A stretch of 64,000 bases of DNA from NCBI RefSeq assembly GCF_003234655.2, contig NZ_CP126271.1, positions 1,550,001 through 1,614,000 on the forward strand. The letters run 5' to 3'. The DNA comes from Curtobacterium sp. MCLR17_007. Its GTDB lineage: Bacteria > Actinomycetota > Actinomycetes > Actinomycetales > Microbacteriaceae. A program made the translations under genes and the position numbers. Each line of letters opens with the position of its first letter. Position 1 is the first letter of the stretch. This document shows, in pieces, positions 2,886 through 19,261 of the stretch. The notes under the pieces are model-generated. The model was not told the DNA's origin and did not search any database. It was given only the letters and a program-made list of their open reading frames with translations.

Positions 2886-4481
2886 TCAGTTCCTACTCGG
2901 TCGCACGCCGGCCGGGAACGTGGCCCTGACCCGCGCGCGGACTTCGGACACCACGGCCCGTCGCATGTGCGGGGAGAACAGCGAGTGGTCGCCCCCGGGG
3001 ACGCGGACGAGGGTCACCGAACCCGGCTCGGCGCCCGGTGCCCAGCGCGCGAGGGCCGCCCGCCCACCGAGCCGGTCGAACAGGGCGGCGTCGACGTCCG
3101 CGGCGATCATCACGACGTCGGTGCCGGCGGAGACCAGCGGACGGACGTGGTCGACGACGCCGCCGGCACGGTCCCGGCGCGCGATGCGCTCACGCAGGGC
3201 CTCCGGCACGACCACGTTGTAGCGCTCACGCACCCACCGTCTGGCCGGTGACGGTGCGTCGACGGCCCGGACGCCGTCGCTGTAGCTGCCGGGTTCGGCG
3301 GCACGTCGCCGGTAGTCGTTCGGGCTGATCTCCACGACGAGTCGCGGGGACGCGGACGACCCGCGTCCCGCGAGCCAGGCGCCGGCGCACATGCCGACCA
3401 GCGCGAGCCGGTCGTGGTCGACGTCGAGCGCGGCCACCACCGCGGCCTGGTCGTCGATCCACTCCTGTGCGAACAGGTAGTCGCGTTCGTCGGCGGCCAC
3501 GGGGGAGCTCTCGCCCGTGCCCCGGCGGTCGACACGCAGCACGCGGACGCCGTCCCGCGCGAGTGCCCGAGCGAGCTCCACCTGGTAGTCCGACGCGCCG
3601 ACGCGGTGCTCCGCTGCGCCGTTGTGCAACACGACCACGGGGGCGTCCTCGTCGTGCGGCACCGTCTCGATCGCGAACAGGCGCTCCGGGCCGAGGAGCA
3701 CGACACGCTCGGACACGCCGTGCCCCAGGTGCAGGACGTCGTCCACCTCCGGAGGGGTCGTGGCGGTCCCGGCGGCGGGTGCCAGGTCATCGATCCAGGA
3801 GACCACCGTCTCGAGGGCGTCGGCGGGGATGCGCGCGTGGATGCTCGTGCCGTCGAGGAGTTCGGCGCTCCCGGCGACCTCGACGACGGCGACGTCCCCG
3901 AGGGCCTTCGGGGCGCGGGCACCGGGACGCACCAGCACCAGGGTGGCGTCGGACCGGGGACCGTGTCGGAGTGCCCCGACGGCCGCCAGCTGGTCCGGGT
4001 CGAGGTCGATGCCGACCAGGGTCTCGACACCGTCGACGACGCGGTGGGCACCGATGGTCATCGTCGCCAGGGCGCGCTGTCGCCGCAGCCAGGCGCGACC
4101 CGACTCCGGAGCGTCCCAGAGCACGAGCCCGTCGTCGTCCGTGGCCGCCGCAGCCGCGACGAGCGCCGCCGACGCCAGTCCGACGAAGACGACGCGCTCG
4201 ACACCGGTCGTGCGGAGCACGGCCGCGGCGTGCCGGGCAGACCGGAGCAGCGCGTCGGGGTCCGCATCGGCCTGGGCGTCACCACGTCCGGACGGGTCGT
4301 AGCGGATCGAGGCCACGCCACGGGCCTCCAGGCGGTCTGCCAGCAGGCGCAGCGTGCGGTAGGCGATCACGCCCTCCTGGCCGAGCGGCGGGCAGATCAC
4401 GACACCGAGCCGTGCCGACGGCGGCGTCTGGACGGCGACACGGAGGGCCGGGGAACCCGACCACCCGTGCGACGTGGTCAC
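2886..4481 (-). CDS. Two-domain alpha/beta hydrolase with Cys nucleophile in the C-terminal domain
   Basis: A 531-residue protein formed from two alpha/beta-hydrolase-like halves. The N-terminal half (about residues 1-235) has VVICPPLGQEGVIAYRTLRL and YDPSGRGDA, as in exosortase-system-type hydrolases, but its elbow is GLASA (101-105), so the nucleophile position is Ala and this half is probably not catalytic. The C-terminal half has LHNGAAEHRVG, VDRRGTGESS, elbow GMCAG (363-367, Cys365) and His499 in PGGDHSLF. A Cys nucleophile in this fold is known from thioesterases and from SyrC/CmaE-type aminoacyltransferases, so an aminoacyl shuttle or release role is inferred. The GTG at 4481 is chosen because it forms a GTGA overlap with the ligase stop; an in-frame ATG exists at 4514. 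Confidence 0.78.
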   Translation of the reverse strand: MTTSHGWSGSPALRVAVQTPPSARLGVVICPPLGQEGVIAYRTLRLLADRLEARGVASIRYDPSGRGDAQADADPDALLRSARHAAAVLRTTGVERVVFVGLASAALVAAAAATDDDGLVLWDAPESGRAWLRRQRALATMTIGAHRVVDGVETLVGIDLDPDQLAAVGALRHGPRSDATLVLVRPGARAPKALGDVAVVEVAGSAELLDGTSIHARIPADALETVVSWIDDLAPAAGTATTPPEVDDVLHLGHGVSERVVLLGPERLFAIETVPHDEDAPVVVLHNGAAEHRVGASDYQVELARALARDGVRVLRVDRRGTGESSPVAADERDYLFAQEWIDDQAAVVAALDVDHDRLALVGMCAGAWLAGRGSSASPRLVVEISPNDYRRRAAEPGSYSDGVRAVDAPSPARRWVRERYNVVVPEALRERIARRDRAGGVVDHVRPLVSAGTDVVMIAADVDAALFDRLGGRAALARWAPGAEPGSVTLVRVPGGDHSLFSPHMRRAVVSEVRARVRATFPAGVRPSRN

Positions 4482-5425
4482 AGGTCCAGCGCGCGACGGA
4501 CGTCGGCCGGCCACGAAGCCGGGTCGGTGCCGTGCGCGGCGAAGAGGGCGATGGTGACGCGTTCCAGTCCCCAGGCGACGCAGGCGCTGTGGGCGACCTC
4601 GCCGTCCTCGGTGCGGATGTCGAACGACGTGCCGAAGTGGTCCTCGTGCAGGTTGGCCGAGCCGATCGCGGTCGGGTCGCCGGCGTCGCCGTAGACCGGC
4701 GTGACGAACTCGAACTTCAGCGCCTGCTCGACCTGGTTGCGGGCCAGCATCCGGCCGACCCGGCCGAAGAACGGGTCGTTGGCCGGGACGACGTCGATCT
4801 CGAGGCCGAACGAGGTCAGCAGGTCGCGGATCGCGGGGACACGCCCGTCGCGGTGCGCCTGCGCCGAGGCCGGGGTGCCGACGTGCACGAACTCGTGCAT
4901 GTGGAAGGCCTGCAGGCGCATCGGGTCGAGCGACGGCTCGCGGCGGAACGAGTCACCGAAGATGTCGAAGGTGCGGCCCTGCTGCGGGACCGTCCCCGTC
5001 AGCAGTCCGTAGAGCGGGTGGCACACCGCCGGGGTGAGCATGAGGTCGGCGGGGTCGAGGAAGTCCTCCCACCGCTCGCCGCGCTCGCGCGCCGCCAGCA
5101 GCTCGCGGTGCTTGCGGTCGTCGCCGGTGAAGCCCGAGATGGACGCGGCCAGGTCGGGGAACGACGCGATGTAGTCGGTGCGTTCGAAGGCGGCGAGGGG
5201 CTCGACCGGCGGGAAGCGGACCACCGCGGTGTCGAGGTCGGCCATCGATCGGACCCCGGCGGTGTCGACCGCGCTGGACACGCGCTCGAAGACACCGGTC
5301 CGGCCGTACAGGCCGGGGGAGCCCAGGTCGATGAGCACGCCGTCGGCGAGCAGGTCCCGGCGCAACGCTGCGCGGGCCCGGTCGAGCGGCGTGTCGGTCG
5401 CGGTGGTGGGGTCGGTGATCGTCAC
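4478..5425 (-). CDS. Amino acid:[carrier protein] ligase, class II synthetase-like
   Basis: A 315-residue homologue of the catalytic core of class II (atypical seryl-tRNA-synthetase-like) enzymes that activate an amino acid as adenylate and load it on the phosphopantetheine arm of a carrier protein, as characterised in Bradyrhizobium. Motif 2 is visible as FGDSFRREPSLDPMRLQAF. The three residues expected to bind the catalytic zinc are placed as in that family: Cys135 (TPAVCHPLYG), Glu178 (FHMHEFVHVG) and Cys282 (AHSACVAWGLERV). No tRNA-binding domain is present. It overlaps the preceding and following genes by GTGA, so it is translated within one operon with the carrier protein. Amino acid specificity (glycine or alanine in known members) cannot be read from sequence. 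Confidence 0.85.
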   Translation of the reverse strand: MTITDPTTATDTPLDRARAALRRDLLADGVLIDLGSPGLYGRTGVFERVSSAVDTAGVRSMADLDTAVVRFPPVEPLAAFERTDYIASFPDLAASISGFTGDDRKHRELLAARERGERWEDFLDPADLMLTPAVCHPLYGLLTGTVPQQGRTFDIFGDSFRREPSLDPMRLQAFHMHEFVHVGTPASAQAHRDGRVPAIRDLLTSFGLEIDVVPANDPFFGRVGRMLARNQVEQALKFEFVTPVYGDAGDPTAIGSANLHEDHFGTSFDIRTEDGEVAHSACVAWGLERVTIALFAAHGTDPASWPADVRRALDL

Positions 5426-6639
5426 AGGATCGCTCCGGTCATCAGGGCCAGTCCGGCGTCGTTCTGCAGGAGACGGTCGTTGCTCACCATGACGGCAGCA
5501 CCGTGGGCGTCGCGGAGGTTCCGGGAGATGCTCATCGGACCGGAGGCGGCGTACCCGGCGATCCCGACGATGCGCAGTGCCTTCGTGACGAGGTCGGTGA
5601 CCCGCTCGGACGCGCCGATCTTCAGCGCGTTGGCGGCGAGGGCGTACGCGCTCGACTCGAGCGTGTCGGGGTCGTCCGCGACGCTGTCGAACCGCTCCGC
5701 AGCGTGCCGGACGCTGTCGGCGAGGAACTGCAGCTCGACCAGCAGCTCCGCGAGCCGGAGCGCACCCGGGGGCGTGGTGCCGACGTTCGCCCGGGCCTGC
5801 TTGCGGACCGCTGCCCGCGCACGCTCGGCGGCCGACGCGGCGATGCCGAGCCAGACCGACGCCCAGAGGACGTGCGAGACGGGGAGGACGGTCTGCGCGG
5901 AGATCGTCGCGTAGTCGTCGCGGAACACCGCGTCCGCCGTGGTCTCGGCGTCGAGGACCCAGCCGTTGCTGCACGTGCCGCGGAGCCCCATCGTGTCCCA
6001 CGTCGAGGTCTGCGAGAGCACGGTGTCCTTCGTCCAGCAGCCGACGAGCCGCTGGTCGGACGCGGCGGCGTCGGGGTCGCGGCGCGCGGTGACGAGGACG
6101 ACGTCGGCCTCGGTGGCGTAGGAGATGACCGGCGCGTCCTTGCGCAGGCGGATCCGGGCCACAGACGAGGGCTCGTGCTCGGTGTGCAGGGTCTCGATCG
6201 CGCAGGTCGAGCGGCGGGCGTCACCACCGACGCCCTTCTCGGTCGTCGACGACGCGACCAGGGCACCGTCGCGGACCGCGGCGGTCATCGCGAGCACGCC
6301 GGCGCCGTCGCCGCCGTGCCGCCACAGCGCCATGACCTGCCCCTGGTGCATCGCGAACACCATGCCCGTCGCCGCGCACGCGCGACCGAGCTCGGTCGCG
6401 ATCACCGAGAGCTCGGAGACGGAGGCACCCTCGCCACCGAGTCCGGTCGGCACAGCGGCGGCGAGCAGGCCGTACTCGCGCATGGCGGCGATGGCCTCGC
6501 GCGGGGGGCGGGCGTCGCGGTCGACCTCGTCGGCGTGCTGTGCGGCGACGGCAGCGACGGCGGCGGTGCGCTCCGCGAAGCGGTCGACGGGGACCGGTCC
6601 GGCCTGCAGCAGCGGGGTCTCCTGGTCCGTCAGGGTCAT
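5422..6639 (-). CDS. Acyl-CoA dehydrogenase-family flavoprotein
   Basis: A 405-residue FAD-dependent acyl-CoA-dehydrogenase-fold enzyme. Family features include the N-terminal helical part (REAIAAMREYGLLAAAVPTG), GGEGASVSELSVIATELGRA, the middle beta domain with ISYATEADVVLVTARR and WDTMGLRGTCSNGWVLD, and the C-terminal helical bundle with LRIVGIAGYAASGPMSISRN. It overlaps the carrier-protein stop by ATGA and the ligase start by GTGA. The context suggests that the substrate is an aminoacyl group on the carrier protein rather than a CoA ester, by analogy with prolyl-carrier dehydrogenases of pyrrole biosynthesis (PltE type). That substrate proposal is inference; the fold assignment is firm. 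Confidence 0.85.
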   Translation of the reverse strand: MTLTDQETPLLQAGPVPVDRFAERTAAVAAVAAQHADEVDRDARPPREAIAAMREYGLLAAAVPTGLGGEGASVSELSVIATELGRACAATGMVFAMHQGQVMALWRHGGDGAGVLAMTAAVRDGALVASSTTEKGVGGDARRSTCAIETLHTEHEPSSVARIRLRKDAPVISYATEADVVLVTARRDPDAAASDQRLVGCWTKDTVLSQTSTWDTMGLRGTCSNGWVLDAETTADAVFRDDYATISAQTVLPVSHVLWASVWLGIAASAAERARAAVRKQARANVGTTPPGALRLAELLVELQFLADSVRHAAERFDSVADDPDTLESSAYALAANALKIGASERVTDLVTKALRIVGIAGYAASGPMSISRNLRDAHGAAVMVSNDRLLQNDAGLALMTGAIL

Positions 6640-6938
6640 GAGGTCGCCAGTGCGGCGGCGGCGACGATGGACGCCACCGAGCCGAAGGTCGCGCGGTTCA
6701 GCACGTGGTCGGGGAACTCCGCGTCGAGGTCGTTCTCGACGGCGAGCATCACGTTGACCGTGGCGTGCGAGGTGAGCCCGAGCGCGTAGAGGTCGGCGGT
6801 CGACGCGACGTCCCCGGCGTCGACGGTCAGGCGTCCGTGGTCGGCGAGCGCACGTCGGACGGCCTGCTCGGCCGTCGGGTCAGCGAGTGCGAGCGAGGTC
6901 GCTCCGGTGTTCTGGTCCTGTTGCATGTGAGCAACCAT
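6636..6938 (-). CDS. Small acyl/aminoacyl carrier protein
   Basis: A 100-residue acidic helical protein resembling acyl carrier proteins. The segment LYALGLTSHATVNVMLAVE fits the helix-II region of carrier proteins, with Ser57 of GLTS as the probable phosphopantetheine attachment site (the usual motif is DSL). Downstream FPDHVLNRATFGSVASIV matches the helix III/IV part. It is the first gene of the set carrier, dehydrogenase, ligase, hydrolase, and lies 102 bp downstream of the holo-ACP synthase that could modify it. An in-frame ATG at residue 5 is an alternative start; no good ribosome binding site supports either. Confidence 0.8.
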   Translation of the reverse strand: MVAHMQQDQNTGATSLALADPTAEQAVRRALADHGRLTVDAGDVASTADLYALGLTSHATVNVMLAVENDLDAEFPDHVLNRATFGSVASIVAAAALATS

Positions 6939-7040
6939 AGGGAGCGGACGGCCCCGGTAAACCGCCGTGCCGGTGCGGGAACCCGCACCCTCCGGACCCG
7001 TTCCTGCACGGGTTGACAGGCTCGCCGGGCATGTCGGCCG

Positions 7041-7418
7041 TCACTGCTCCGCGAAGGCCACGGCCGTCGCGAGCGCCAGCCCCCGTTCGTGGGACAGGGA
7101 CACGTCGACGGTGGTGATGCCGGCCGTCGCCGCGAGTCCGGCGGCCGCTCCGACGAGCTCGACACGGGGTGCGCCCTGCTCGTCGAGGACGATCGCGACG
7201 TCGCGGAGCGGGACCGACTCGGACCGCGTGGGGCGGAGGAGCTTGATGACCGCCTCTTTCCCGGCGAAGCGGGCCGCCAGGCGCTCCGGGTCGTCTCCGG
7301 CGTCGGCGCGCTCCCGTTGGGTGAAGACGCGGGCCAGGTACCGCTCGCCGTGGGCGCTGATGCCGGCGCGGACGTCGTCGACCGACGCCAGGTCGCAGCC
7401 GGTGCGGATCTGGGTCAT
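7041..7418 (-). CDS. acpS: Holo-[acyl-carrier-protein] synthase (4'-phosphopantetheinyl transferase)
   Basis: A 125-residue AcpS-type transferase that moves 4'-phosphopantetheine from CoA to the serine of carrier proteins. The magnesium-binding motifs are clear: GCDLASV with Asp9, and LAARFAGKEAVIKLL with Glu55; the C-terminal VSLSHERGLALATAVAF is also typical. Size matches the AcpS family (about 120-130 residues). It lies between the GH130 gene (22 bp gap) and the carrier protein on the same strand. It may serve fatty-acid-synthase ACP, the adjacent aminoacyl carrier, or both; sequence cannot decide. Confidence 0.9.
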   Translation of the reverse strand: MTQIRTGCDLASVDDVRAGISAHGERYLARVFTQRERADAGDDPERLAARFAGKEAVIKLLRPTRSESVPLRDVAIVLDEQGAPRVELVGAAAGLAATAGITTVDVSLSHERGLALATAVAFAEQ

Positions 7419-7440: not shown

Positions 7441-8514
7441 TCAGCGGCGGACGAGCCGCGCCACCCCGATCTTCGAGTCGGCCATCCCGTAGAACACGTA
7501 CCGCACCCCGTCGATCTCCTCGATCGCCGTCGGGAACACCACGTTCGGCACGATGCCCGACTGCTCGTCCTCGGTGTCGGCGGACAGCAGCGGCTCGGTC
7601 GTCCGGGACACGACCTGCCACGGCCGCTCCGCGTCGAGGATCATCGCCCCGGCCGCGTAGTTGACGTTCTGCTGCTGGGCGAGGGAGCCGACGAGCTCGC
7701 CGGTCACCCCGTGGTGGAGGAGCAACCAGCCCTCCGGCACGCGGATCGGCGCCGGTCCCGCCCCGATCTTGAGCTCCTCGAACGGCATCTCCGGTGCGGC
7801 GAGGACCCGGTGCCCGCGCCACTCCGCGAGTGCCCCGACGTCCTCGCGGACCCGGTCGAGGTGCACGAACGAGATCCAGATCGACGGCCGGGTGTCCTCG
7901 ACCCACGACGGCGGGTGCACGCCCTCGCCGGGGCGGATCTCGGACAGGTCCCAGCCCGGGCGCTGCAGCACCGCGATGCTCGTGACGCCGTCCGGTCCGA
8001 CGACCGGCTCGGGGAGGAAGACGCAGTCCTTGTTGAAGTACAGACCGAGGTCGACGTCGAGGGCGTCGTCGTACCCGAACCGGACAGGTCCGAGCCGGCG
8101 CCACGCGCGCAGGTCCTCCGACACGGCCACGGCCGTGTGCGGTCCGAGCGGCCCGTAGGCGACGTACGTCATGACGTGCAGGCCGATGGCCGGGAGGAAC
8201 GTGGTGCGCGGGTCCTCGACGCCGGCGTTCTGCGCCCCCACCTCCCACGTCCGCTCCGGCTCGAGCACGATCCCCTCGCGTTCGACACCGACGGGCACGC
8301 CGTCCTCGACGACGACGCGGGCGATGCCGATCCGGGAGACGTTGCCGGTCGCCACGAGCCGGGGGAGCAGGTAGAGCTCGCCGTCCGGGCCGCGGCCGCT
8401 GCCGGGGTTCAGCACACCCTCGGCTTCGAGCGGGTCGTCCGCCAGCGGCGACATGAGCAGGCCGACCCGCTCGAGGGCGTACGGGAAGTCAGCGGCGGCA
8501 AGGGCGTCAGTCAT
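7441..8514 (-). CDS. Glycoside hydrolase family 130 enzyme (beta-mannoside phosphorylase-like)
   Basis: A 357-residue five-bladed beta-propeller protein of GH130, the family that phosphorolyses or hydrolyses beta-1,2- or beta-1,4-linked mannosides. Diagnostic stretches are VLNPGSGRGPDGELYLLPRL, GVEDPRTT, FNKDCVFLPEP, the phosphate-site-like KIGAGPAPIRVPEGWLLLHH and the ending VVFPTAIEEIDGVRYVFYG. No signal peptide, so it acts on imported oligosaccharide. It is the last gene of the LacI operon and its start overlaps the end of the next GH130-like gene by 8 bp. Linkage specificity and phosphorylase versus hydrolase activity are not determined by what is visible. Confidence 0.88.
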   Translation of the reverse strand: MTDALAAADFPYALERVGLLMSPLADDPLEAEGVLNPGSGRGPDGELYLLPRLVATGNVSRIGIARVVVEDGVPVGVEREGIVLEPERTWEVGAQNAGVEDPRTTFLPAIGLHVMTYVAYGPLGPHTAVAVSEDLRAWRRLGPVRFGYDDALDVDLGLYFNKDCVFLPEPVVGPDGVTSIAVLQRPGWDLSEIRPGEGVHPPSWVEDTRPSIWISFVHLDRVREDVGALAEWRGHRVLAAPEMPFEELKIGAGPAPIRVPEGWLLLHHGVTGELVGSLAQQQNVNYAAGAMILDAERPWQVVSRTTEPLLSADTEDEQSGIVPNVVFPTAIEEIDGVRYVFYGMADSKIGVARLVRR

Positions 8515-9616
8515 GGTGGTCCTCTCGGTAGCAGTACATCTCGCGGGTGCCGCGCGGCGCGTCCCAGCCCTGTGCGAACACGCGGTCGCCGTCCCAGCGG
8601 AGCAACCCGCCCCACGCGAGGGACCCGCCGCTGTGCAGCTCGCGCTGGGTGAACGGGGCGTCGACGTCGTAGCAGGCCTGGGCGGCGGCGAAGTGCCCGG
8701 CGGGGTCGCGGTGGAAGAAGTCGAGGACGAGCCGGTCGCCGTCCACGACCGCGCACGCGACCTCGTACAGCTGCGGCCCGAGCGAGGACATGTCGAGGTA
8801 GTCCTCGGGCGCGAACGTCCAGTGCACCATGTCGTCGGAGTGGCCGACGGTCAGGCGTCCACCGCACCCCTCGGACAGGTACATGAGGTACTCGCCGCCG
8901 ATCCGGACCGCTTCGCCGCGGTCGTTCCGCGGGATCACGGCGCCCTTCGCCCAGAGCTGCGACACCGCGTACGGCACGACCTGTCCGAGCTTCTCCCAGT
9001 GCACCAGGTCATCGGACACCGCGAGGTTGATGTCGCATCCGACTTCGCCGTCCAGGTGGTCGGCGGACGGGTACTCGGCACGCTCGGGTGTCCCGGTGGT
9101 GTCCCAGATGCCGTTGTAGAACAGGAACCAGCGTCCCTCGGCACGGTAGAGCTTCGGGTCCTCGACCCCGAGCGACTCGTTGCGGAGCGTCGGCCAGAGG
9201 ATCGGGCCGCCGTCGTCGACCCAGCCGTCCGCGATCAGGACCGCGTGCCCGATCCGCGACGAGGTGCTCTCCTTGCGCGGGGCCGCACGGTAGACGAGAT
9301 GCAGCTGCTCCGGGCCTCCTGGCCGTCCGTCGACCGGAGCGACGCCCAGCGTGGGGTTGAAGACGGACTCGGCCGTCCACCCGATCCCGGTGGGGTCCGC
9401 CCAGGCACGCGGCTGCGTGAAGGTGAGCGACGGATCGCGCCGGAACGGCCCGATCATCCAGGCCGGTGGGTCGTCGTAGACGGCGGAGAAGTCGTCCGTC
9501 GAGATCCGGTCGGTCAGCGCGTTGTCGTGCCGGAGGGCTCGCTCGTAGTCGGCGACGAGCTGGGCGCGGTCGAGCTGACTCGGTTCGGACCGGCTCGGGT
9601 CGAGGTCGGCGCTCAT
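8507..9616 (-). CDS. Beta-propeller glycosidase/phosphorylase, GH130-like
   Basis: A 369-residue protein with propeller-type repeats: TAESVFNPTLGVAPVDGR, HLVYRAAPRKE, SSRIGHAVLIADGW, LGVEDPKLYRAEGRWFLFYN, and YLMYLSEGCGG. The arrangement VFNPT / VYRA / IGHA / GVEDPK resembles GH130 and related GH32/43 superfamily propellers, more divergent than the neighbouring GH130. The ATG at 9616 makes an ATGA overlap with the permease stop. Cytoplasmic, no signal peptide. It probably processes the same imported oligosaccharide as the adjacent GH130, perhaps a different linkage or chain end. GH43-like activity is the main alternative. Confidence 0.75.
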   Translation of the reverse strand: MSADLDPSRSEPSQLDRAQLVADYERALRHDNALTDRISTDDFSAVYDDPPAWMIGPFRRDPSLTFTQPRAWADPTGIGWTAESVFNPTLGVAPVDGRPGGPEQLHLVYRAAPRKESTSSRIGHAVLIADGWVDDGGPILWPTLRNESLGVEDPKLYRAEGRWFLFYNGIWDTTGTPERAEYPSADHLDGEVGCDINLAVSDDLVHWEKLGQVVPYAVSQLWAKGAVIPRNDRGEAVRIGGEYLMYLSEGCGGRLTVGHSDDMVHWTFAPEDYLDMSSLGPQLYEVACAVVDGDRLVLDFFHRDPAGHFAAAQACYDVDAPFTQRELHSGGSLAWGGLLRWDGDRVFAQGWDAPRGTREMYCYREDHHD

Positions 9617-10578
9617 CCCTTGACCCCGGACCCGACGTCGGTCGAGATGAAGTAGCGCTGGAACACGATGAACAGCACGACGACCGGCGCGGCGAGCACG
9701 ACCGCCCCGGCGAGGATCGCTCCGAACGGGTTCGCGGTCGACTGGGCGATGTTCGAGATGTAGTTGGCGAGCGACACCGCAAGGGGCTGCATCGATGCCT
9801 CCTTCGTGATGAGGAACGGCCAGAGGAAGTCGTTCCACGGCCCGATGAAGGTCACGAGCACCACGGTCACGAGCGCCGGCCGGACCAGGGGGAGTGCCAC
9901 CCGCCACAGCACGCTGATCTCACCGGCACCGTCGATCCGCGCGGCGTCGAAGATCTCCTGCGGGACCTGCAGGAAGTACTGGCGGAAGATGATCACCGCC
10001 GTCGAGTTGATCGCGAACGGCAGGATCATGCCGAGGTAGTTGTCGGCGAGTCCGTAGTTCCGCGCGATGAGCACGTAGAGCGGGATCATCAGCAGCTGGA
10101 ACGGGATGACCTGCACGAGGAGTGCCAGGGCGAAGGTGACGCCGCGTCCCTTCCACTGCAGGACCGCGAGCGCGTAGCCGGCGAGGACGCCGAAGACGAC
10201 CGTGCAGATCACCACGCCGCCGGTGTAGATGCCGGAGTTCAGGAGCCCCTGGCCGAGGTTCACCCGGGAGTTGATCTCGGCGTAGTTGTGCCCGGTGATG
10301 TTCGACGGGTTCGGGAACGCACCGGCGATCGAGGTGTCCGGGGACGCCTGGAGCGAGCCGACGATCATGTACCAGAACGGGAACAGGAAGACCGCGGCGC
10401 CGATGAGGAGCACCACGAACCGGAGCGCCGCCTGGCCGCGGCTCAGCTGGATCCCGTCCATGCGGCGTCGCCGCGTGCGGCGCGGTCTGGAGGCCCGACC
10501 TTCGTCGTCCCCGCCGGTGCCGGTCCCCGGGACGGGGAGGCCCGCAGCGCCTGCGGCGCCGGTTGCTGTCTGGCTCAT
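9613..10578 (-). CDS. Carbohydrate ABC transporter permease (MalG-type)
   Basis: A 321-residue inner-membrane permease of the CUT1 family. After a basic, disordered N-terminus (RASRPRRTRRRR) come six hydrophobic segments beginning with FVVLLIGAAVFLFPFWYMIV. The ATPase-contacting EAA loop is visible as FDAARIDGAGEISVLWRVALP. The C-terminal FQRYFISTDVGSGVKG is typical of the MalG/LacG type. Coupled by ATGA overlaps on both sides. No ATPase is in the operon, so a shared MsiK-like ATPase elsewhere is expected, as is usual in actinobacteria. Confidence 0.9.
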   Translation of the reverse strand: MSQTATGAAGAAGLPVPGTGTGGDDEGRASRPRRTRRRRMDGIQLSRGQAALRFVVLLIGAAVFLFPFWYMIVGSLQASPDTSIAGAFPNPSNITGHNYAEINSRVNLGQGLLNSGIYTGGVVICTVVFGVLAGYALAVLQWKGRGVTFALALLVQVIPFQLLMIPLYVLIARNYGLADNYLGMILPFAINSTAVIIFRQYFLQVPQEIFDAARIDGAGEISVLWRVALPLVRPALVTVVLVTFIGPWNDFLWPFLITKEASMQPLAVSLANYISNIAQSTANPFGAILAGAVVLAAPVVVLFIVFQRYFISTDVGSGVKG

Positions 10579-11525
10579 CGTTCTCTTCCTCCGGCGAATC
10601 GGTTCTGCAGGAACGCGATGACCATGACCCCGACGACCAGCACGATGCCGATCGCGGACGCGTACCCCGGGTGGTTCTGCTCGATGCCCTGCTGGTACAT
10701 CACCAGCACGGGTGACGACGACGAGCCGTTCGGGCCGCCGCCGCCAGTCAGCAGGTAGGGCTCCGTGAACAGGTTCGCCCCGATGACGGTGCTGAGGAGC
10801 AGGACCAGCACGGTCGCGGGTCGGACTCCGGGGACGGTCACGGAGAAGAACGACCGCACCTTGCCCGCACCGTCCGTCGCGGCTGCTTCGTAGAGCTCCT
10901 TCGGCACGTTCTGCAACGCCGCCAGGTACAGCAGGATGTAGAACCCGAGCTGCTTCCACGTGACGAAGAGCGCGACGATCGGCATCGCCCAGTGCTCGTT
11001 GACGAGCCACCCAGGGTTCGGGGCGAGCGGGCCGAGGAGCTTCGACACGAGGCCGGTCTGGTTGAACAGGAACAGCCAGACGCCGACGACGGCGACGGAC
11101 GCCGTGACGTACGGCACGTAGTAGCTGACCCGGAAGAACGTCGACCAGCGGACGACGCTGTTGAGCGCCGCCGCGAGCACGAGCGACAGCACGACGGTGA
11201 GCGGCACGTTGATGAGCAGGAACTCGCCGACGTTCAGGAACGACTGCCGGACCTGGGGGTCCTCGAACGCCTGCACGTAGTTCTGCACGCCGATGAACGG
11301 TCGGTCGACGGTCGCCCCCGGGGCCGAGAAGAAGTAGTCGTGGAACGACATGTAGACGGCGAGGACCAGGGGGTAGGCGAAGATCACCAGCACGAACACC
11401 AGGTACGGCGCGCTGAAGAGCCAGCCGAGGGGGTTCCTGCCGAACACCCGGATGCGCCAGGGGTGCCGGTGCTGACCGCGGTCCCCAGCGGATGCGGCGG
11501 CCGGGGCGGTCGCTGTTGCGGTCAT
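10575..11525 (-). CDS. Carbohydrate ABC transporter permease (MalF-type)
   Basis: A 316-residue permease with six membrane segments, starting with WLFSAPYLVFVLVIFAYPLVL. The EAA motif reads LYEAAATDGAGKVRSFFSVT. The loop YLLTGGGGPNGSSS before the last segments is typical of the MalF/LacF partner. It is translated just before the MalG-type permease (ATGA overlap) and 13 bp after the binding protein. Together the three genes form one importer for an unidentified oligosaccharide, probably a mannoside given the two GH130-type enzymes downstream. Confidence 0.9.
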   Translation of the reverse strand: MTATATAPAAASAGDRGQHRHPWRIRVFGRNPLGWLFSAPYLVFVLVIFAYPLVLAVYMSFHDYFFSAPGATVDRPFIGVQNYVQAFEDPQVRQSFLNVGEFLLINVPLTVVLSLVLAAALNSVVRWSTFFRVSYYVPYVTASVAVVGVWLFLFNQTGLVSKLLGPLAPNPGWLVNEHWAMPIVALFVTWKQLGFYILLYLAALQNVPKELYEAAATDGAGKVRSFFSVTVPGVRPATVLVLLLSTVIGANLFTEPYLLTGGGGPNGSSSSPVLVMYQQGIEQNHPGYASAIGIVLVVGVMVIAFLQNRFAGGRER

Positions 11526-11538
11526 GGTCGGTCCTCCT

Positions 11539-12837
11539 TCACTTCTGGACAGCGAGCTGGGTCGTCTTGGTGGCCGCGGCGGCGAGCTGCGGATCGAGTT
11601 CGCCGTCGCCGGAGATGACGGCCTTCGTCCAGAAGTTCCGGAACGCCTGCAGGACGGCCGTCGAGTTGGGACCCGTCGGGTCGTCGACGGTCCTGGCTGC
11701 CTGGGCGCCGAACTCCCGGTACGACGGGTTCTTCGCGAAGTAGTCCGCGTAGGTCGACGCGAGGTCCTTCCGGATCGGCATCTGCCCGGTCGTCTCGAGC
11801 AGCGCGCGGTCCTGGTCGGGACTCGTCGCGTACTTGAGGACGTCCCACGCGGTTCCCTGGTTGCGGCACGACGCGTACATCGCGGCGTTCTTGGCGTCCG
11901 GGAACGTCCAGGTCGCGTCCGCTGCGGTGCCGTCCTTCGTCGGGACGGGCACGACGCCCCAGTCCACCGCACCCTTGTAGCTGGCGACCGCCCACGGGCC
12001 GACCATCGCCATCGCGGCCTGGCCGGTGGCGAAGGCGTCACCCTGGAGCTGGTCCTTGCCGGCGTACCCCTTGGCGTACACGGTCTTCCAGAAGCTCGCG
12101 ACGTCCTTGCCGGCGGCGTCGTCGAACGTGGCCTTCTGGTCCCCGTCGAGCAGCCCCGTCCCGCCGGTCTCGGCGGCGTACAGCGGCAGGAAGTCGAAGT
12201 TCGGCTGGAAGAACTCGCTCGTCGCCGCGGGGTAGATGGCGAACGGCGCGGCCTTCGTGGCCTTGATCTTCGCGGCGGCAGCGAGGAAGTCGGCGTAGGT
12301 GCTGAGCTTCGGGTCGGTGGTGCTCAACCCGGCCTTCGCGAAGACCTTCTTGTTGTAGAACATCATCACCGGGTTCGACTTCCACGGCATCTGGTAGTAG
12401 TCACCGTCCGGGGACTTGTACTGGTCGGCCGTCTTCCCCGAGCGCGCCTGGATGTAGGCGTCGGCACCGGGGAACTTCGACAGGTCGACCAGGCCGCCCT
12501 GCTTCTGGAACTGCCCGGTGGCGGCGGGCAGGTTGTTGAACACCAGGCACGGTGTGGTGCCGGCCGTGATCGCGGCGCCGATCACCTCTTCGGTGCTCTT
12601 GCCCGCGGGGACCTCCTGGGCCCTGATCGGCTCGTCCGGGTGGTCCTTGTTCCACGAGCTGACGAGCCCCTTGCCCCAGGTGACCTCCTGGGCGTTGTTC
12701 GAGTACCAGATCGTGATCGGACCGTGCTTGGTCCTCGCCTCGGGTCCGGCCACCGTGTTGCCGGTGGCGCAGCCGGAGACGGTGAGCGCCACGGTCGCCG
12801 CGAGGGCGGTGCCGATGGCGAGCATGCGGCGGTGCAT
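11539..12837 (-). CDS. Sugar ABC transporter substrate-binding lipoprotein
   Basis: A 432-residue extracellular solute-binding protein family 1 member. It has a signal peptide and lipobox VSGC, predicting lipidation at Cys23. The mature part begins with GPITIWYSNNAQEVTWG and contains MPWKSNPVMMFYNKKVFAKAG and the segment GDAFATGQAAMAMVGPWAV, all classic for sugar-binding proteins of CUT1 systems. AAGGAGT upstream of the ATG supports the start. It follows lacI by 50 bp on the same strand and precedes two permeases, so it is the recognition part of this importer. Confidence 0.92.
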   Translation of the reverse strand: MHRRMLAIGTALAATVALTVSGCATGNTVAGPEARTKHGPITIWYSNNAQEVTWGKGLVSSWNKDHPDEPIRAQEVPAGKSTEEVIGAAITAGTTPCLVFNNLPAATGQFQKQGGLVDLSKFPGADAYIQARSGKTADQYKSPDGDYYQMPWKSNPVMMFYNKKVFAKAGLSTTDPKLSTYADFLAAAAKIKATKAAPFAIYPAATSEFFQPNFDFLPLYAAETGGTGLLDGDQKATFDDAAGKDVASFWKTVYAKGYAGKDQLQGDAFATGQAAMAMVGPWAVASYKGAVDWGVVPVPTKDGTAADATWTFPDAKNAAMYASCRNQGTAWDVLKYATSPDQDRALLETTGQMPIRKDLASTYADYFAKNPSYREFGAQAARTVDDPTGPNSTAVLQAFRNFWTKAVISGDGELDPQLAAAATKTTQLAVQK

Positions 12838-12887
12838 GTGACTCCTTCGTCGGGTGTGCGTCCGAGCCGTCGAGGCTCCCGCGCGCA

Positions 12888-13928
12888 CTACGCGGTCGTG
12901 TGCTGTCGGGTCGGAGGCGCGCCCGTCGACCCGCGGACGATGAGTCCGGCGGGGTGCAGAGCGCGGTCGACGGGCGTGGTGCCGTCGACGAGGTCGAGCA
13001 GTGTGGCGGCGACGATGCGCCCCCACTCGGCCGGGTCGTTGTCGAGGGTGGTGAGGGCCGGGTACACGAGCCGCCCGATCTGCGAGCCGTCGAGCCCGGT
13101 GACCGAGAGGTCTTTCGGGATCCGGAGGCCGCGGTGCTGGGCGACCGACATGCCGGCGATCGCCATCGGGTCGTTCCCGTAGACGATCGCCGTCGGGCGG
13201 TCGTCCACCGGGAGGTCGAGGAGCTGCTCGGTCGCCGCGGCGCCCTGTTCGGGCGAGAAGTCCGTCGGGACCACGGCCGCGTCGAGGCCGGCCTCGTGTG
13301 CCGCGTCGGCGAACAGCTGCCGACGCTCGTGTCCGTGAAGCATGGACTCGGGACCGGCCACGTGGGCGATCCGCTCGTGACCGAGGCCGACCAGGTAGCG
13401 GACGAGCTCGTGGATGCCGGGGGCGTAGTCCCGTCGGATCGCGGGGAACGCCGTCGGCACGTCGGGCTCGCCGAGTGTGACGGCGTGCACCCCGAGGTCG
13501 GCGATGAGCTCGATTCGGGGGTCGCCGGCGAGCAGGTCCGTGACGATGAACCCGTCGACCCTGGCGTCCGCGGCGAGCGTGCGGTAGGCGCGTTCCTCGG
13601 CGTCGTGGTCGCCGACGAGGCTGAGGACGAGGACCTGGCCGCGCTCCGACAGGACGGTCTCGAGACCGGAGATGAACGACGCGAAGAACGGGTCGACCTC
13701 GATGATGCGGGGGTCGCGACGGACCACCAGGCCCAGGGCGTAGGCGCGACGGTTGGTGAGGCCACGGGCGGCCGGGTTCGGGCGCCAGCCGATGTCCGCG
13801 GCGACCTTGTGGATGCGTTCGCGGGTGGTGGCGTTGACACCGGGCCGGTCGTTGAGCGCGAGGGACACGAGGCCCTTCGAGACGCCGGCTTCGCGTGCGA
13901 CGTCGACGATGGTGGGGCGTCGTGTCAT
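12888..13928 (-). CDS. LacI-family transcriptional regulator
   Basis: A 346-residue repressor with the LacI helix-turn-helix at residues 6-26 (TIVDVAREAGVSKGLVSLAL) followed by the hinge IGWRPNPAARGL. The rest is a periplasmic-binding-protein-like effector domain, with the dimer-domain features GFIVTDLLAGDPRIEL and TAIVYGNDPMAIAG. It heads the operon lacI, binding protein, two permeases, two GH130-type genes, all on the minus strand. A pair of CCGG-centred operators lies 36-71 bp upstream of its start, so autoregulation of the whole operon is likely. The inducer is probably an oligosaccharide or sugar released by the GH130 enzymes. Confidence 0.92.
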   Translation of the reverse strand: MTRRPTIVDVAREAGVSKGLVSLALNDRPGVNATTRERIHKVAADIGWRPNPAARGLTNRRAYALGLVVRRDPRIIEVDPFFASFISGLETVLSERGQVLVLSLVGDHDAEERAYRTLAADARVDGFIVTDLLAGDPRIELIADLGVHAVTLGEPDVPTAFPAIRRDYAPGIHELVRYLVGLGHERIAHVAGPESMLHGHERRQLFADAAHEAGLDAAVVPTDFSPEQGAAATEQLLDLPVDDRPTAIVYGNDPMAIAGMSVAQHRGLRIPKDLSVTGLDGSQIGRLVYPALTTLDNDPAEWGRIVAATLLDLVDGTTPVDRALHPAGLIVRGSTGAPPTRQHTTA

Positions 13929-13963
13929 CGTCGGCTCCTTCGCGTCGTGTCCCTGGTCACGGT

Positions 13964-13999
13964 TCTAAACCGGTTCAGAGTCATTTGTACCGGTTTAGA
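13964..13999. promoter_or_regulatory. Double LacI-type operator upstream of the sugar operon
   Basis: TCTAAACCGGT at 13964-13974 and its exact reverse complement ACCGGTTTAGA at 13989-13999 flank a 14-bp spacer. Each arm sits in a 16-bp CCGG-centred imperfect palindrome (TCTAAACCGGTTCAGA has one mismatched pair), with centres 20 bp apart, about two helical turns. CG-centred palindromes are the standard LacI-family operator type. Position upstream of lacI indicates repression of the operon transcribed to the left. Confidence 0.7.
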
Positions 14000-14082
14000 C
14001 AGACCGCCGCAAGGGCGGTGAAGAACCGGACGGACGGGCGGCGCGGGTCGGGCCCGCACCGCACCTGGCGTCCGTCACCAAG

Positions 14083-14088
14083 TACGAT
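14083..14088 (+). promoter_or_regulatory. Probable -10 element of the tRNA-Val gene
   Basis: TACGAT ends 9 bp before the first base of the tRNA. A matching -35 is not obvious. The same hexamer is used upstream of the peroxiredoxin. Confidence 0.4.
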
Positions 14089-14097
14089 CGTCGCTGC

Positions 14098-14170
14098 GGG
14101 CTCTTAGCTCAGTTGGTAGAGCACTTCGTTTACACCGAAGTGGTCGGCGGTTCGAGCCCGCCAGAGCCCA
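14098..14170 (+). tRNA. tRNA-Val (anticodon TAC)
   Basis: A complete cloverleaf can be drawn: acceptor stem GGGCTCT/AGAGCCC, D arm GCTC-AGTTGGTA-GAGC, anticodon stem CTTCG/CGAAG with loop TTTACAC (anticodon TAC), and T arm GGCGG-TTCGAGC-CCGCC. The discriminator is A at 14170; the genome continues with CCG, so the 3' CCA is not fully encoded and must be added enzymatically. It decodes GUA and, by wobble, GUG. Confidence 0.96.
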
Positions 14171-14228
14171 CCGTGTACCCACCGCGGTCGTGGTTCCGGT
14201 CGCGGACCGCCGAACAGGAGCCCGACGC

Positions 14229-14981
14229 ATGCTCACGCCGCAGCTCGTCACCGGAACGCTCATCGGCATCGGCGCACTCGTCGCCCTCGCGACGGCGCTG
14301 CTGCTGGCCGTCCGAGCCCCGAAGCCGTTCGCGCCGGCGCTCGCCGTCCTGCAGGGCACCGTGCAGCTCGCCGCCATCAGCCTCATCCTGTCGAACATCA
14401 TCCGCAGCCCGTTCTGGATCGGCGTCGCCCTGTTCGTCATGTTCACCGTGGCGACGTGGACCGCGGCCCGTCGGCTGGGCGCGTACCGGCGCATGGTCGG
14501 GCCGGTCGCGACCGCGATGGGCGCCGGCGTCGTCGTCAGTCTGGCCGTGGTGTTCAGCACCGGAGCCATCGAGTTCTCGCCCCGGTACGTGCTCGCGATC
14601 GGCGGGATCGTCATCGGGAACGCGATGACGATCGCCACGCTGAGCGGTCGGCGGTTCGTCGAGCTCACCGGCGACCACTGGGAGGAGGTCGAGGGGTGGC
14701 TCGCGCTCGGCGCACGTCCACGCCAGGCGACCGTGGACCTGGTGCGCCGTGCTGTCCACGCCGCCATGGTCCCGACGACCGACCAGACCCGCACCACGGG
14801 GCTCGTTACCCTGCCGGGAGCGTTCGTCGGGGCCGTGTTCGGCGGGGTCTCGCCGCTCGAGGCGGGGCGGTTCCAGATCGTGGTCCTGGCCAGCATCATC
14901 GGCTGCGGCGCGGTCGTGGCCATCGTCCTCACGCGGTGGCTCGCACCCGTCCGTGTGCGGCCGGCGACGCTGCACAACTGA
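14229..14981 (+). CDS. FetB-like ABC transporter permease (UPF0014 family)
   Basis: A 250-residue membrane protein with about seven hydrophobic segments and the UPF0014/FetB hallmarks: LQGTVQLAAISLIL, the segment ATWTAARRLGAYRRM, IGGIVIGNAMTIATLSGRRF, and TTGLVTLPGAFVGAVFGGVSPLEAGRFQ. In E. coli the FetA/FetB pair is linked to iron export and oxidative-stress resistance. AGGAG at 14216-14220 supports the ATG at 14229. No FetA-type ATPase lies in this window, so its partner must be encoded elsewhere. The substrate is inferred from the family only. Confidence 0.82.
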   Translation: MLTPQLVTGTLIGIGALVALATALLLAVRAPKPFAPALAVLQGTVQLAAISLILSNIIRSPFWIGVALFVMFTVATWTAARRLGAYRRMVGPVATAMGAGVVVSLAVVFSTGAIEFSPRYVLAIGGIVIGNAMTIATLSGRRFVELTGDHWEEVEGWLALGARPRQATVDLVRRAVHAAMVPTTDQTRTTGLVTLPGAFVGAVFGGVSPLEAGRFQIVVLASIIGCGAVVAIVLTRWLAPVRVRPATLHN

Positions 14982-15095
14982 CGCACGCGCGACGGCAGCG
15001 CCGTGGCGGTCGGGACAGGTGGGCGCGCACCTGACCTGCCGCCCGTCGACGCCGCGCCCCGGGCGCCTCGCGGGGTGATCCGGCATGATCGACAG

Positions 15096-16862
15096 GTGCC
15101 CTCCCCGAACGTGACCGCCGCGTACCGCGCCGCCCGTGACCAGCTCCTCGCCGCGACGGAACCAGCACGAGCCGACGACCCGGTGATGCCCGACACGACC
15201 GTGGCCACGTTCGCCTGGCCCGACCTCGGCGACACGTTCAACTGGGCCGACGACTGGTTCGACGTCATCGCCGCGGGCAACGACCGCACGGCGCTCTGGC
15301 TCGCGGACGCCGACGGCGACCGCCGGTTCAGCTACGCCGAGATGGCCGCGCGCTCCGACCGGCTCGCGGTCGTCCTCGACGCACACGGCGTCCGGAAGGG
15401 CGACCACGTGCTGGTGATGCTCGGCAACCAGCTCGAACTGTGGGAGACGATGCTCGCGGTCATCAAGCTCGGCGCCGTCATCCTGCCGACCTCGACGATG
15501 CTCGACACCGCCGACCTGCAGGACCGCGTCGACCGCGGGTCCGTCGCCCACGTGGTCACGAACGCGGCGGAGACACCCAAGTACACGGGCGTGCACGGGG
15601 ACTTCTCACGCATCGTGATCGGCGGCGCCGCGGACGGGTGGGCGCCGTACCCCGACCACCTCGGCGACCCGGCACCCGCGGGCGAACAGCGCCCGGTCGT
15701 CACCACCCGGACGACGGACCCGTGCCTGGTGTACTTCACGTCCGGCACCACCTCGAAGCCGAAGATGGTCGTGCACACGCAGACCTCGTACCCGGTCGGA
15801 CACCTCAGCACGATGCACTGGATCGGTCTGCGGCCCGGCGACGTCCACCTGGCGATCAGCTCACCGGGGTGGGGCAAGCACGCGTGGAGCTGCTTCTTCG
15901 CACCGTGGATCGCCGAGGCCACCGTGTTCGTGCACGACACCCCGCGCTTCGACCCCGCGGCGCTGCTGGCACAGCTCGAACGGGCCGAGGTCAGCACGTT
16001 CTGCGCGCCGCCCACGGCCTGGCGGATGATGCTGCAGGCCGACCTCGGAGCCCGGCCACGAGCGCTGCGCGAAGTGGTGTCCGCCGGCGAGCCGCTCAAC
16101 CCCGAGGTCATCGACCGGGTGCGCGACGCATGGGGCCTGACGATCCGCGACGGCTACGGCCAGACCGAGACGACGGCGATCATCGGCAACGCCCCGGGCG
16201 CGGACGTGACAGCCGGCGCGATGGGGACGCCGCTGCCCGGCGTCACCGTGGTGCTGCTCGACCCGTTGACCGGTGCACCCGGGGACGAGGGCGAGGTCTG
16301 CCTCGACCTGCGCGAGCGCCCGGTGAACCTGATGGCCGGGTACCTCGGCGAAGCGGACCGGACCGCCGACGCGATGCGCGACGGCCACTTCCACACGGGC
16401 GACATCGCCGCCCGTGACGCGGCCGGACAGCTCACCTTCATCGGCCGCACCGACGACGTCTTCAAGTCCTCCGACTACAAGGTCTCGCCGTTCGAGGTCG
16501 AGAGCGCCCTGCTGCAGCACCCGGCCGTCGCCGAGAGCGCGGTCGTCCCCGCACCGGACCAGGCGCGGCTCAACATCGTGAAGGCCTACGTTGCGCTCGC
16601 CGCGGGCTGGGAGCCGACGGCCGACACGGCGCGCCAGGTCCTCGAGCACGCACGTGATGTCCTCCCCGTGTACGCACGGGTCCGCCGGGTCGAGTTCGCC
16701 GAGCTGCCCAAGACCATCTCCGGCAAGATCCGCCGGGTGGAGCTCCGTGAGCTCGAGGAACGCGCTGCAGTGAGCGGGACGCCCGCCGTGGGTGAGTGGC
16801 GCGAGGACCACTTCCCCGAGCTCCGCGGCACGCGCGCAGCCGAGGCGCCCGGCGCGAGCTGA
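15096..16862 (+). CDS. AMP-dependent acyl-CoA synthetase/ligase
   Basis: A 588-residue member of the ANL adenylating enzymes, of the acetyl/medium-chain acyl-CoA synthetase type. Core motifs appear in order: YFTSGTTSKPKMVVHT (ATP-binding P-loop), GYGQTETT, HFHTGDIAARD, GRTDDVFKSSDYKVSPFEVE and the catalytic-lysine motif LPKTISGKIRRVELRE. It activates a carboxylate to the acyl-adenylate and then to CoA. The GTG at 15096 is preferred over the earlier start of the frame: CATGAT at 15083-15088 lies 7 bp before it, fitting a leaderless transcript. Substrate chain length cannot be told. The gene stands alone, ended by a strong hairpin. Confidence 0.85.
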   Translation: MPSPNVTAAYRAARDQLLAATEPARADDPVMPDTTVATFAWPDLGDTFNWADDWFDVIAAGNDRTALWLADADGDRRFSYAEMAARSDRLAVVLDAHGVRKGDHVLVMLGNQLELWETMLAVIKLGAVILPTSTMLDTADLQDRVDRGSVAHVVTNAAETPKYTGVHGDFSRIVIGGAADGWAPYPDHLGDPAPAGEQRPVVTTRTTDPCLVYFTSGTTSKPKMVVHTQTSYPVGHLSTMHWIGLRPGDVHLAISSPGWGKHAWSCFFAPWIAEATVFVHDTPRFDPAALLAQLERAEVSTFCAPPTAWRMMLQADLGARPRALREVVSAGEPLNPEVIDRVRDAWGLTIRDGYGQTETTAIIGNAPGADVTAGAMGTPLPGVTVVLLDPLTGAPGDEGEVCLDLRERPVNLMAGYLGEADRTADAMRDGHFHTGDIAARDAAGQLTFIGRTDDVFKSSDYKVSPFEVESALLQHPAVAESAVVPAPDQARLNIVKAYVALAAGWEPTADTARQVLEHARDVLPVYARVRRVEFAELPKTISGKIRRVELRELEERAAVSGTPAVGEWREDHFPELRGTRAAEAPGAS

Positions 16863-16890
16863 CGCGGCGCCAGCCCGGCGCGACCCATGG

Positions 16891-16936
16891 CCGGACAGGA
16901 GGACCGTGCCGGGTCGGCACCGCGCCTCCCGTCCGG
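16891..16936. terminator. Hairpin, GACGGGAGGC-type repeat copy 1
   Basis: Arms 16891-16910 and 16916-16936 pair with few mismatches around a 5-nt loop. It lies between two convergent genes (stops at 16862 and 16947), so a bidirectional terminator is likely. No T-run follows. The right arm ends CGCCTCCCGTCCGG, shared with the other copies in this window. Confidence 0.65.
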
Positions 16937-16946
16937 TGGTGACCCG

Positions 16947-17888
16947 CTACTCGTGCCGCGGGGACGCGGTCAGGGCGCCCTGCAGCGCGCGTGCCTGCGC
17001 GAGCCAGAAGGCGCGCGACACACCGGCCTTCGGCATCACCGCGTCGAAGCCGTGGAACGCGCCCGGCACGACCTCGAGCGTGCAGTCGATCCCGGCGGCG
17101 CGGAGCCGCTCCGCGTACTCGACGTCCTCGTCGTGGAACAGGTCGTTCGCGCCGACGCCGACCCAGGCCGGAGGCAGGCCGGCGAGGTCGGTGCGGCGGG
17201 CCGGGGCCGCGTACGCCGACACGTCCGGGCTGCCGGGATCGGTGCCGAGGTACGACGTCCAGCCGTACCGGTTGCTGCCCGGCATCCACACGTGCACGTT
17301 GGTGGTGTCCATGTCGGTCCGCAGCACCGTTCTGTCGTCGAGCATCGGGTAGACCAGCAGCTGGAAGACCGGCACCGGACCCGGCCGGTCCACGGCCATC
17401 AGGGTGGCAGCGGCGGCGAGCCCACCACCCGCGCTCGCACCCCCGATCGCGATCCGGGCCGGGTCGATGCCCAGCCGTCCGGCCCGCTCGACCAGCGCAA
17501 CGAAGGCGCTGTACACGTCCTCGGCGGCGGCGGGAGCGACGGCGTCGGGCGCCAGGCGGTACCGCACGGCGGCGACCGCGATCCCGAGGCTGCGGACGAA
17601 GCCGGCGTTCGCGCGGTCGTCCTGCTCCGGGCTGCCGGAGATGAGCCCGCCACCGTGGACCCAGAGCAGCAGCGGCGTCGGGCCCTCGGCGAGCGCCGGG
17701 CGGAGCAGCCGGACCGACACGTCCGGGTTGCCCGCGGTGCCCGGCAGGTGCAGTTCGGACGCCGTGACCTCCGGCCCGAGGTCGGCCGGCCGCGGCCGCA
17801 CCCGCCGGACGAGCCCCGTCAGGCGCGGTCCCCAGGAGAACCCGGGCAGGAAGCGGATCGCACGGAGGTCGGGGTGGGTGGGGGTCAT
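16947..17888 (-). CDS. Alpha/beta hydrolase, hormone-sensitive-lipase type esterase
   Basis: A 313-residue esterase/lipase of the HSL family. The oxyanion-hole motif HGGG appears in LLLWVHGGGLISGSPEQDD, and the nucleophile elbow GASAGGGLAA follows. The acid is likely in GANDLFHDEDVEYAERL, and the His in VPGAFHGFDAVMPK. Cytoplasmic, no signal peptide. The ATG at 17888 overlaps the stop of the upstream ATPase gene by ATGA, so the two are coupled. Substrate unknown; short-chain acyl esters are usual for the family. Confidence 0.88.
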   Translation of the reverse strand: MTPTHPDLRAIRFLPGFSWGPRLTGLVRRVRPRPADLGPEVTASELHLPGTAGNPDVSVRLLRPALAEGPTPLLLWVHGGGLISGSPEQDDRANAGFVRSLGIAVAAVRYRLAPDAVAPAAAEDVYSAFVALVERAGRLGIDPARIAIGGASAGGGLAAAATLMAVDRPGPVPVFQLLVYPMLDDRTVLRTDMDTTNVHVWMPGSNRYGWTSYLGTDPGSPDVSAYAAPARRTDLAGLPPAWVGVGANDLFHDEDVEYAERLRAAGIDCTLEVVPGAFHGFDAVMPKAGVSRAFWLAQARALQGALTASPRHE

Positions 17889-18418: not shown

Positions 18419-18458
18419 GCGCGCACTCTGCCACGGTCGGTCGTGCCATGATCGGGCG

Positions 18459-19253: not shown

Positions 19254-19261
19254 CGGAGGGG

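Follow-up and report, generated by a model that had tools for sequence, protein, structure and literature searches.

A five-gene aminoacyl-carrier cassette of Curtobacterium as a candidate unit for amino acid loading, oxidation and transfer

The 64,000-nucleotide stretch of Curtobacterium sp. MCLR17_007 analysed here (the window; C1:1550001-1614000 within a 3.8 Mb genome) carries five minus-strand genes that encode a phosphopantetheinyl transferase (PPTase), a carrier protein (CP), a flavoenzyme of the acyl-CoA dehydrogenase (ACAD) fold, a class II synthetase-like amino acid:[carrier protein] ligase (LIG) and a two-domain alpha/beta-hydrolase (HYD). The five genes form one inherited unit, which we read as a stand-alone cassette for charging a carrier with an amino acid, oxidising the bound group and transferring it, most likely to a surface polysaccharide sugar, with a probability of about 45%. 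Operons of this type have been known since 2010, and the new element is the five-gene form that lacks DUF1839. The parts of the cassette are as follows:

7041..7418, minus strand: PPTase, AcpS-type, 125 amino acids, first gene of the cassette (PF01648, 50.1 bits, cut-off 25)
6636..6938, minus strand: aminoacyl CP, 100 amino acids (NF005480, 84.5 bits, cut-off 72)
5422..6639, minus strand: ACAD-fold flavoenzyme, 405 amino acids (PF02771, 56.2 bits; PF00441, 38.1 bits)
4478..5425, minus strand: class II synthetase-like amino acid:[carrier protein] ligase (LIG), 315 amino acids (NF005479, 375 bits, cut-off 357)
2886..4481, minus strand: two-domain alpha/beta-hydrolase (HYD), 531 amino acids from the GTG at 4481 (Pfam Abhydrolase families)

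These are the five genes that an earlier note, made from the letters of the window, had described; their open reading frames are confirmed, and curated models support the ligase and the carrier. The linkage of the last four genes that it had seen is likewise borne out by the 4-base overlaps that join CP, ACAD, LIG and HYD. The GTG at 4481 is most likely the start of HYD, an alternative start at 4514 giving a protein of 542 amino acids, and the nearest named protein relatives are those of Curtobacterium.

Within the genus, the ligase and the ACAD-fold enzyme are positive in the same 44 of 59 genomes, and the same 15 genomes are negative for both. HYD occurs in 46 of 60 genomes, namely these 44 together with G027 and G487, an extra strain not included in the ligase search; CP is also present in 46 of 60, the 44 being joined here by G487 and by G023, a 73% complete genome with CP at a contig start. 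The PPTase adjoins the cassette in at least 42 of the 60 genomes by hand count, and the ligase is fragmented in two genomes, G026 and G045. At the cassette site of G027 (L165), HYD stands with no family match to ligase, ACAD or CP, as if the remainder of the cassette had been lost.

In the family sample the ligase is found in 21 of 398 genomes and 9 of 85 genera, and in the phylum sample any ligase match is seen in 10 of 396 genomes, with 4/396 over the cut-off. A set of 13 divergent loci from the Microbacteriaceae, comprising that of G051 and 12 of other genera, was scored by tblastn, which was preferred over gene calling, as the latter missed some genes (in L142, for example, those for CP, ACAD and the ligase, and elsewhere several CP genes). 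CP and the PPTase are present at all 13, and ACAD and HYD at 12 each, always less than 6 kb from the ligase, the PPTase lying within 4.5 kb in every case. Furthermore, the order CP-ACAD-ligase recurs in Actinomycetota and Pseudomonadota. The earlier note would have given up its proposal had ligase, carrier and flavoenzyme failed to co-occur elsewhere; they co-occur in the genus, in the family and in Pseudomonadota, and its self-contained aminoacyl-carrier unit is upheld by the joint presence and absence of the parts across 59-60 genus genomes.

Loading is the best supported of the predicted steps. LIG matches the Bll0957-type structures 3mey and 4h2w with 231.5 and 236 bits, and CP matches the solved carriers 2jq4 (Atu2571) and 4h2w_C with 54.9 and 54.6 bits. 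The phosphopantetheine site of CP is Ser57 (codon 6768-6770), and the cognate carrier gene, over the NF005480 cut-off, sits two genes from the ligase. Cys135, Glu178, Cys282, Arg161 and Arg289 of the ligase fall in columns that are at least 93% identical across 114 ligases; we take the first three to be the zinc ligands, as the earlier note did when it called them intact, and the two arginines to be the class II motif arginines. Because both proteins exceed their curated cut-offs and resemble solved ligases and carriers, it is very likely, judging by sequence, that the carrier receives an amino acid from the ligase. Ligases of this class II type were reportedly described in 2010, and glycine is said to be the substrate of some of them. 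The role of the carriers that they load was still called unknown in a 2022 review.

The genome encodes three PPTases. That of the cassette scores 49.2 bits against TIGR00516, under the cut-off of 59.8. It was considered as the main AcpS and rejected in that role, since a better AcpS match, the best in the genome, lies elsewhere (C1:3436246). The earlier claim that the unit carries its own PPTase thus holds in the sense that the genome has a separate main AcpS and that a PPTase is present at every one of the 13 divergent family loci. The remaining PPTase (C1:2176645) lies about 4 kb from a carrier-domain match in a 1496-amino-acid open frame, and the ordinary acyl carrier protein (ACP) gene of the genome (C1:1544150) is about 10 kb from the cassette.

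The chemistry of the flavoenzyme is where the earlier proposal needs to be revised. Its AlphaFold2 model has a mean pLDDT (predicted local distance difference test) of 91.1, and the usual catalytic-base columns of the ACAD fold are occupied by Ser255 and Val385. Among 104 flavoenzyme family members, of which 75 stem from one contig scan and are hence non-independent, not one has an acidic residue at column 255 or 385, and none has one anywhere in columns 250-267. Column 385 was calibrated on a canonical paralogue from the same genome (L170), which has Glu there, and column 255 is taken as the second base position according to the usual ACAD numbering. Because both base columns are non-acidic, ordinary dehydrogenation by this enzyme appears unlikely from its sequence, and oxygenation is probably favoured instead. 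An ACAD fold without the base glutamate, as in KijD3 and ChmG, is found in both the alignment and the model of the window enzyme; this feature is shared with other ACAD-fold monooxygenases and is not specific to N-oxygenases.

In the profile search, KijD3, DnmZ (which we take to be an N-oxygenase) and nitrososynthase reach 84-90 bits, compared with 51-53 bits for the prolyl-ACP dehydrogenases 4irn and 6cxt_B, and the prolyl-CP dehydrogenase model NF045652 gives 16.9 bits, far under its cut-off of 650. A decision between dehydrogenase and oxygenase from structure was attempted and rejected, as the Foldseek and VIA match lists hold both kinds intermixed. The structure 6CXT is that of Bmp3 (PMC11177257), and its absence from the 50 VIA matches listed carries no weight as evidence. 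In a second ACAD-fold paralogue of the same genome (L172, C1:1966039), the base glutamate is replaced by Ile and the His of the MH motif is kept; it is perhaps another flavin monooxygenase-like enzyme. A further intended control, L171, proved to be an ORF in the wrong frame and was left out of account.

HYD is modelled with a mean pLDDT of 90.5, and both of its halves are alpha/beta-hydrolase domains. The C-terminal half retains the Cys (codon 3387-3389), the Asp and the His, while the N-terminal nucleophile is lost. Among 65 relatives, the C-terminal Cys and His are each kept in 64 and Asp in 61 and 63 at two columns, and 63 have Arg, Gly or Ala where the N-terminal nucleophile would stand. 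The two-domain Cys-hydrolase of the earlier note therefore stands as regards its C-terminal domain, the N-terminal domain having lost its nucleophile. The fold matches are esterase, lipase and dienelactone hydrolase domains, chiefly to the C-terminal half; the exosortase A hydrolase models TIGR03100 and TIGR03101 give 64.6 and 50.4 bits, below their cut-offs of 168.45 and 202.75, and an Azospirillum relative scores more strongly against these models, although still under the cut-offs. Cys nucleophiles are frequent in acyl-transferring members of the alpha/beta-hydrolase fold. A lone Cys site next to a silent domain fits either acyl transfer or thioester hydrolysis, and we lean slightly towards transfer, because DUF1839, the predicted maker of the final bond by gene order, is missing from nearly all Microbacteriaceae that have the ligase. 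A Pfam scan of the five cassette genes gave no match to a DltB- or AlmG-type acyltransferase.

The DUF1839 protein belongs to the form of the operon seen in the sampled relatives, most of which are proteobacterial. Six plasmid records from Azospirillum, Rhizobium, Mycetohabitans and Caballeronia have the order CP-ACAD-LIG-DUF1839, with GH2 annotated next in five of the six and an alpha/beta-hydrolase nearby in three. In a contig scan that returned mostly Proteobacteria, CP is present at 77 of 77 loci with room to see it, ACAD at 76 of 77, DUF1839 and GH2 each at 77 of 79, and HYD within 10 kb of the ligase at 56 of 72; these counts come from the best 80 of 572 confirmed loci, ranked by how closely they resemble an Azospirillum ligase, and describe that branch only. 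In the family, DUF1839 is found in one of 398 genomes (G226), compared with 21 for the ligase, and the Microbacteriaceae version is for this reason mostly without it; DUF1839 and GH2 accompany one of the 13 divergent loci, again that of G226. PF08893 (DUF1839) is absent from the window genome in a search in which no control genome was positive, G226 being positive in a similar search, and no GH2 relative lies beside the window cassette, that search having been limited to the locus. The window unit is thus a variant in which a PPTase and HYD accompany the core and DUF1839 is absent. In L075 (5485-8307) and similar rhizobial loci, genes for a class II synthetase-like and an aminomutase-like protein (TIGR03822) lie upstream of the cassette (32-34 mapped loci); this pair is perhaps an EF-P beta-lysylation set.

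A glycan acceptor is suggested by the neighbours of the relatives, which include sugar transferase (Bac_transf), GT4 glycosyltransferase, flippase-like and Wzz-like genes. The Pfam scans covered 20 genes flanking the relatives, eight members of clusters in L154 and L160, and 10 genes beside standard Curtobacterium cassettes, one member representing each cluster. At five of the 13 divergent loci in the family, two of these five being from one genus, the ligase has a gene of the Bac_transf cluster, assigned from its single scanned member, at a distance of 6 to 9.4 kb. On a Tsukamurella plasmid (L044), ligase, carrier, PPTase and a HYD relative are embedded without ACAD among exopolysaccharide glycosyltransferases. 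In G051 (L154, 7940-17391), a divergent cassette (ACAD 52% and HYD 45% identical) is found at the chromosomal flank that other Curtobacterium cassettes occupy, and two GT4 genes and Bac_transf come before it, which suggests replacement by transfer at a shared chromosomal site. Since several relatives adjoin polysaccharide-assembly genes in this way, a glycan is favoured as the acceptor, at roughly even odds. The earlier note had left the product as an undescribed small metabolite or tailoring group; the former may still hold, but the neighbours of several relatives speak for the glycan. A further ACAD-free ligase and carrier locus, L152 of G274 (7458-19436), has a PPTase, HYD, a sugar transferase and four genes of an ATP-grasp cluster (one member scanned), and possibly serves an oligopeptide-type glycan decoration.

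In the scheme proposed here, the PPTase would arm the carrier, and LIG would activate a small amino acid as the adenylate and place the aminoacyl group on the carrier thiol, as its family strongly suggests. The flavoenzyme would oxidise the carrier-bound aminoacyl group, N-oxygenation or another monooxygenation being likelier than alpha,beta-dehydrogenation in view of the missing base. The Cys of HYD may accept the modified acyl group and hand it to an acceptor, which from genomic context is most likely a surface polysaccharide sugar; HYD would thereby fill a role that in the proteobacterial relatives probably falls to DUF1839, with or without HYD. A narrower version, in which an N-oxygenated aminoacyl group (e.g. 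N-hydroxyglycyl or an oxime) is made on the carrier and fixed to a surface polysaccharide by the Cys hydrolase-fold acyltransferase, is unlikely in this exact form; if true, it would add a new type of glycan modification and would give the ligase family a function. A five-gene unit that is inherited as a block with its own PPTase makes the purpose of amino acid:carrier ligases directly testable, and the missing catalytic base recasts a vague oxidation as a sharp question of mass shift, +16 or -2 Da.

Transfer to a glycan has to be weighed against release, in which the amino acid would be loaded, N-oxygenated or otherwise oxidised, and hydrolysed off by HYD as a free oxidised amino acid to serve as a metal ligand, signal or building block. 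The closest experimentally shown parts list, the Chm set (PMC11177257), speaks for release. So does the surrounding of the standard Curtobacterium cassettes, which also weighs against a glycan acceptor: no glycosyltransferase neighbour was recognised at the window or at eight other such cassettes, where part of the flank genes was scanned, and all 60 genus genomes searched have sugar transferases, irrespective of the cassette, Bac_transf-type genes numbering one to three in nearly every whole genome. Several relatives, however, sit in polysaccharide clusters, no transporter is common to the mapped loci (single ones lie near L161 and L168, with most flank genes not scanned), and the Cys nucleophile of HYD is of the kind common among acyl-transferring members of its fold, so that we consider release rather unlikely. 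Far less credible is a decaying remnant or a chance neighbourhood without joint function: 15 of 59 genus genomes lack the cassette, and G026 and G045 have it in fragments, yet its parts share one pattern of presence and absence, the gene order recurs across two phyla, and the zinc ligands of the ligase, the carrier serine and the Cys and His of HYD are conserved.

Other readings concern the oxidation itself. The flavoenzyme might act like an amine oxidase, the alpha-amino group being oxidised to an imine and hydrolysed to a 2-oxoacyl thioester (e.g. glyoxylyl or pyruvyl), which HYD would transfer; a carboxylate base at the ACAD positions would not obviously be required for this, but no residue pattern examined favours the imine route over oxygenation, and it seems improbable. 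The mechanism of the earlier note, true ACAD-type dehydrogenation of the carrier-bound amino acid with a 2-Da loss, whether alpha,beta or from proline to pyrrole, is at least as improbable. Evidence against it comes from the non-acidic base columns in 104 of 104 members, from the profile search, in which N-oxygenases outscore prolyl-ACP dehydrogenases, and from the low NF045652 score; moreover, glycine, if it is the substrate, has no beta-carbon available. Oxygenation on the carrier followed by transfer thus stays the preferred course.

Directly upstream of the PPTase, on the minus strand (7441-13928), lie a pair of GH130 genes (100.7 and 32.9 bits, cut-off 26), two ABC permeases, a sugar-binding protein and a LacI regulator. 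They were considered as cassette members and rejected, as no GH130 relative is found within about 10 kb at the nine other Curtobacterium cassette loci mapped (L154, L160-L164 and L166-L168), and they are probably a separate sugar utilisation set. At these nine loci and at that of the window genome itself (L169), one side of the cassette site carries genes for a redoxin, pyruvate dehydrogenase E1, a PucR-type regulator, an acyl transferase and ketoacyl-ACP synthase III. The site thus lies near genes of fatty acid synthesis, which may or may not bear on its function.

The novelty of what the earlier note proposed is reduced by an operon pointed out in 2010, by authors whom we take to be Iyer and colleagues. 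A note added in proof in Biol Direct describes an operon of a StRS paralogue, an ACP, a redox enzyme, Atu2574 and a glycosidase, and predicts aminoacyl monooxygenation followed by aminoacylation of surface sugars (PMC2922099), so that both the ligase-carrier-redox operon and the link to surface sugars were already in print. By its gene order, Atu2574 would be the DUF1839 protein; this family has been assigned a papain-like fold, with glycan processing at the cell wall suggested (PMC10318531). The window shares with the 2010 operon the adjacent CP, ACAD-fold redox enzyme and ligase; it differs in having neither DUF1839 nor a neighbouring GH2, and in having a PPTase and HYD, and neither a PPTase nor a Cys-hydrolase is named in the main-text passages of PMC2922099. 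No paper on the actinobacterial five-gene variant turned up in searches of an open-licence library. Similarly, the cassette shares with the Bll0957 and Atu2573 ligases and the Atu2571 carrier their NF005479 and NF005480 membership, the zinc ligands and a carrier gene close by, whereas its ligase belongs to an actinobacterial branch with a PPTase and a Cys-hydrolase in the unit.

Chalkophomycin biosynthesis offers a likeness in parts. Its adenylating enzyme ChmJ is not known to be a relative of class II synthetases, and, if the base column is 255, ChmG presumably has Met where the cassette family has Ser, Thr or Ala. ChmG is an ACAD-fold N-oxygenase that acts on an aminoacyl carrier together with an adenylating enzyme, ChmJ being described as proline-specific, and with a releasing alpha/beta-hydrolase, ChmF, which hydrolyses N-hydroxypyrrole carboxylate off the carrier (PMC11177257). 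The ChmJ-ChmI-ChmG-ChmF set and the cassette thus have in common an adenylating enzyme, an ACP, an ACAD-fold flavoenzyme free of the base glutamate and an alpha/beta-hydrolase. In DltABCD and AlmEFG, the logic is the same, an amino acid being activated, passed to a carrier protein and delivered to a surface polymer or lipid (PMC3783018, PMC12930378), the roles of AlmE and AlmF being named in opposite ways by the two sources. The window cassette, whose enzymes are unrelated to theirs, departs from them in that activation is by a class II synthetase homologue and not by an ANL-type enzyme like DltA or AlmE, the transferase would be a Cys protein of the alpha/beta-hydrolase fold, and an oxidation step is added.

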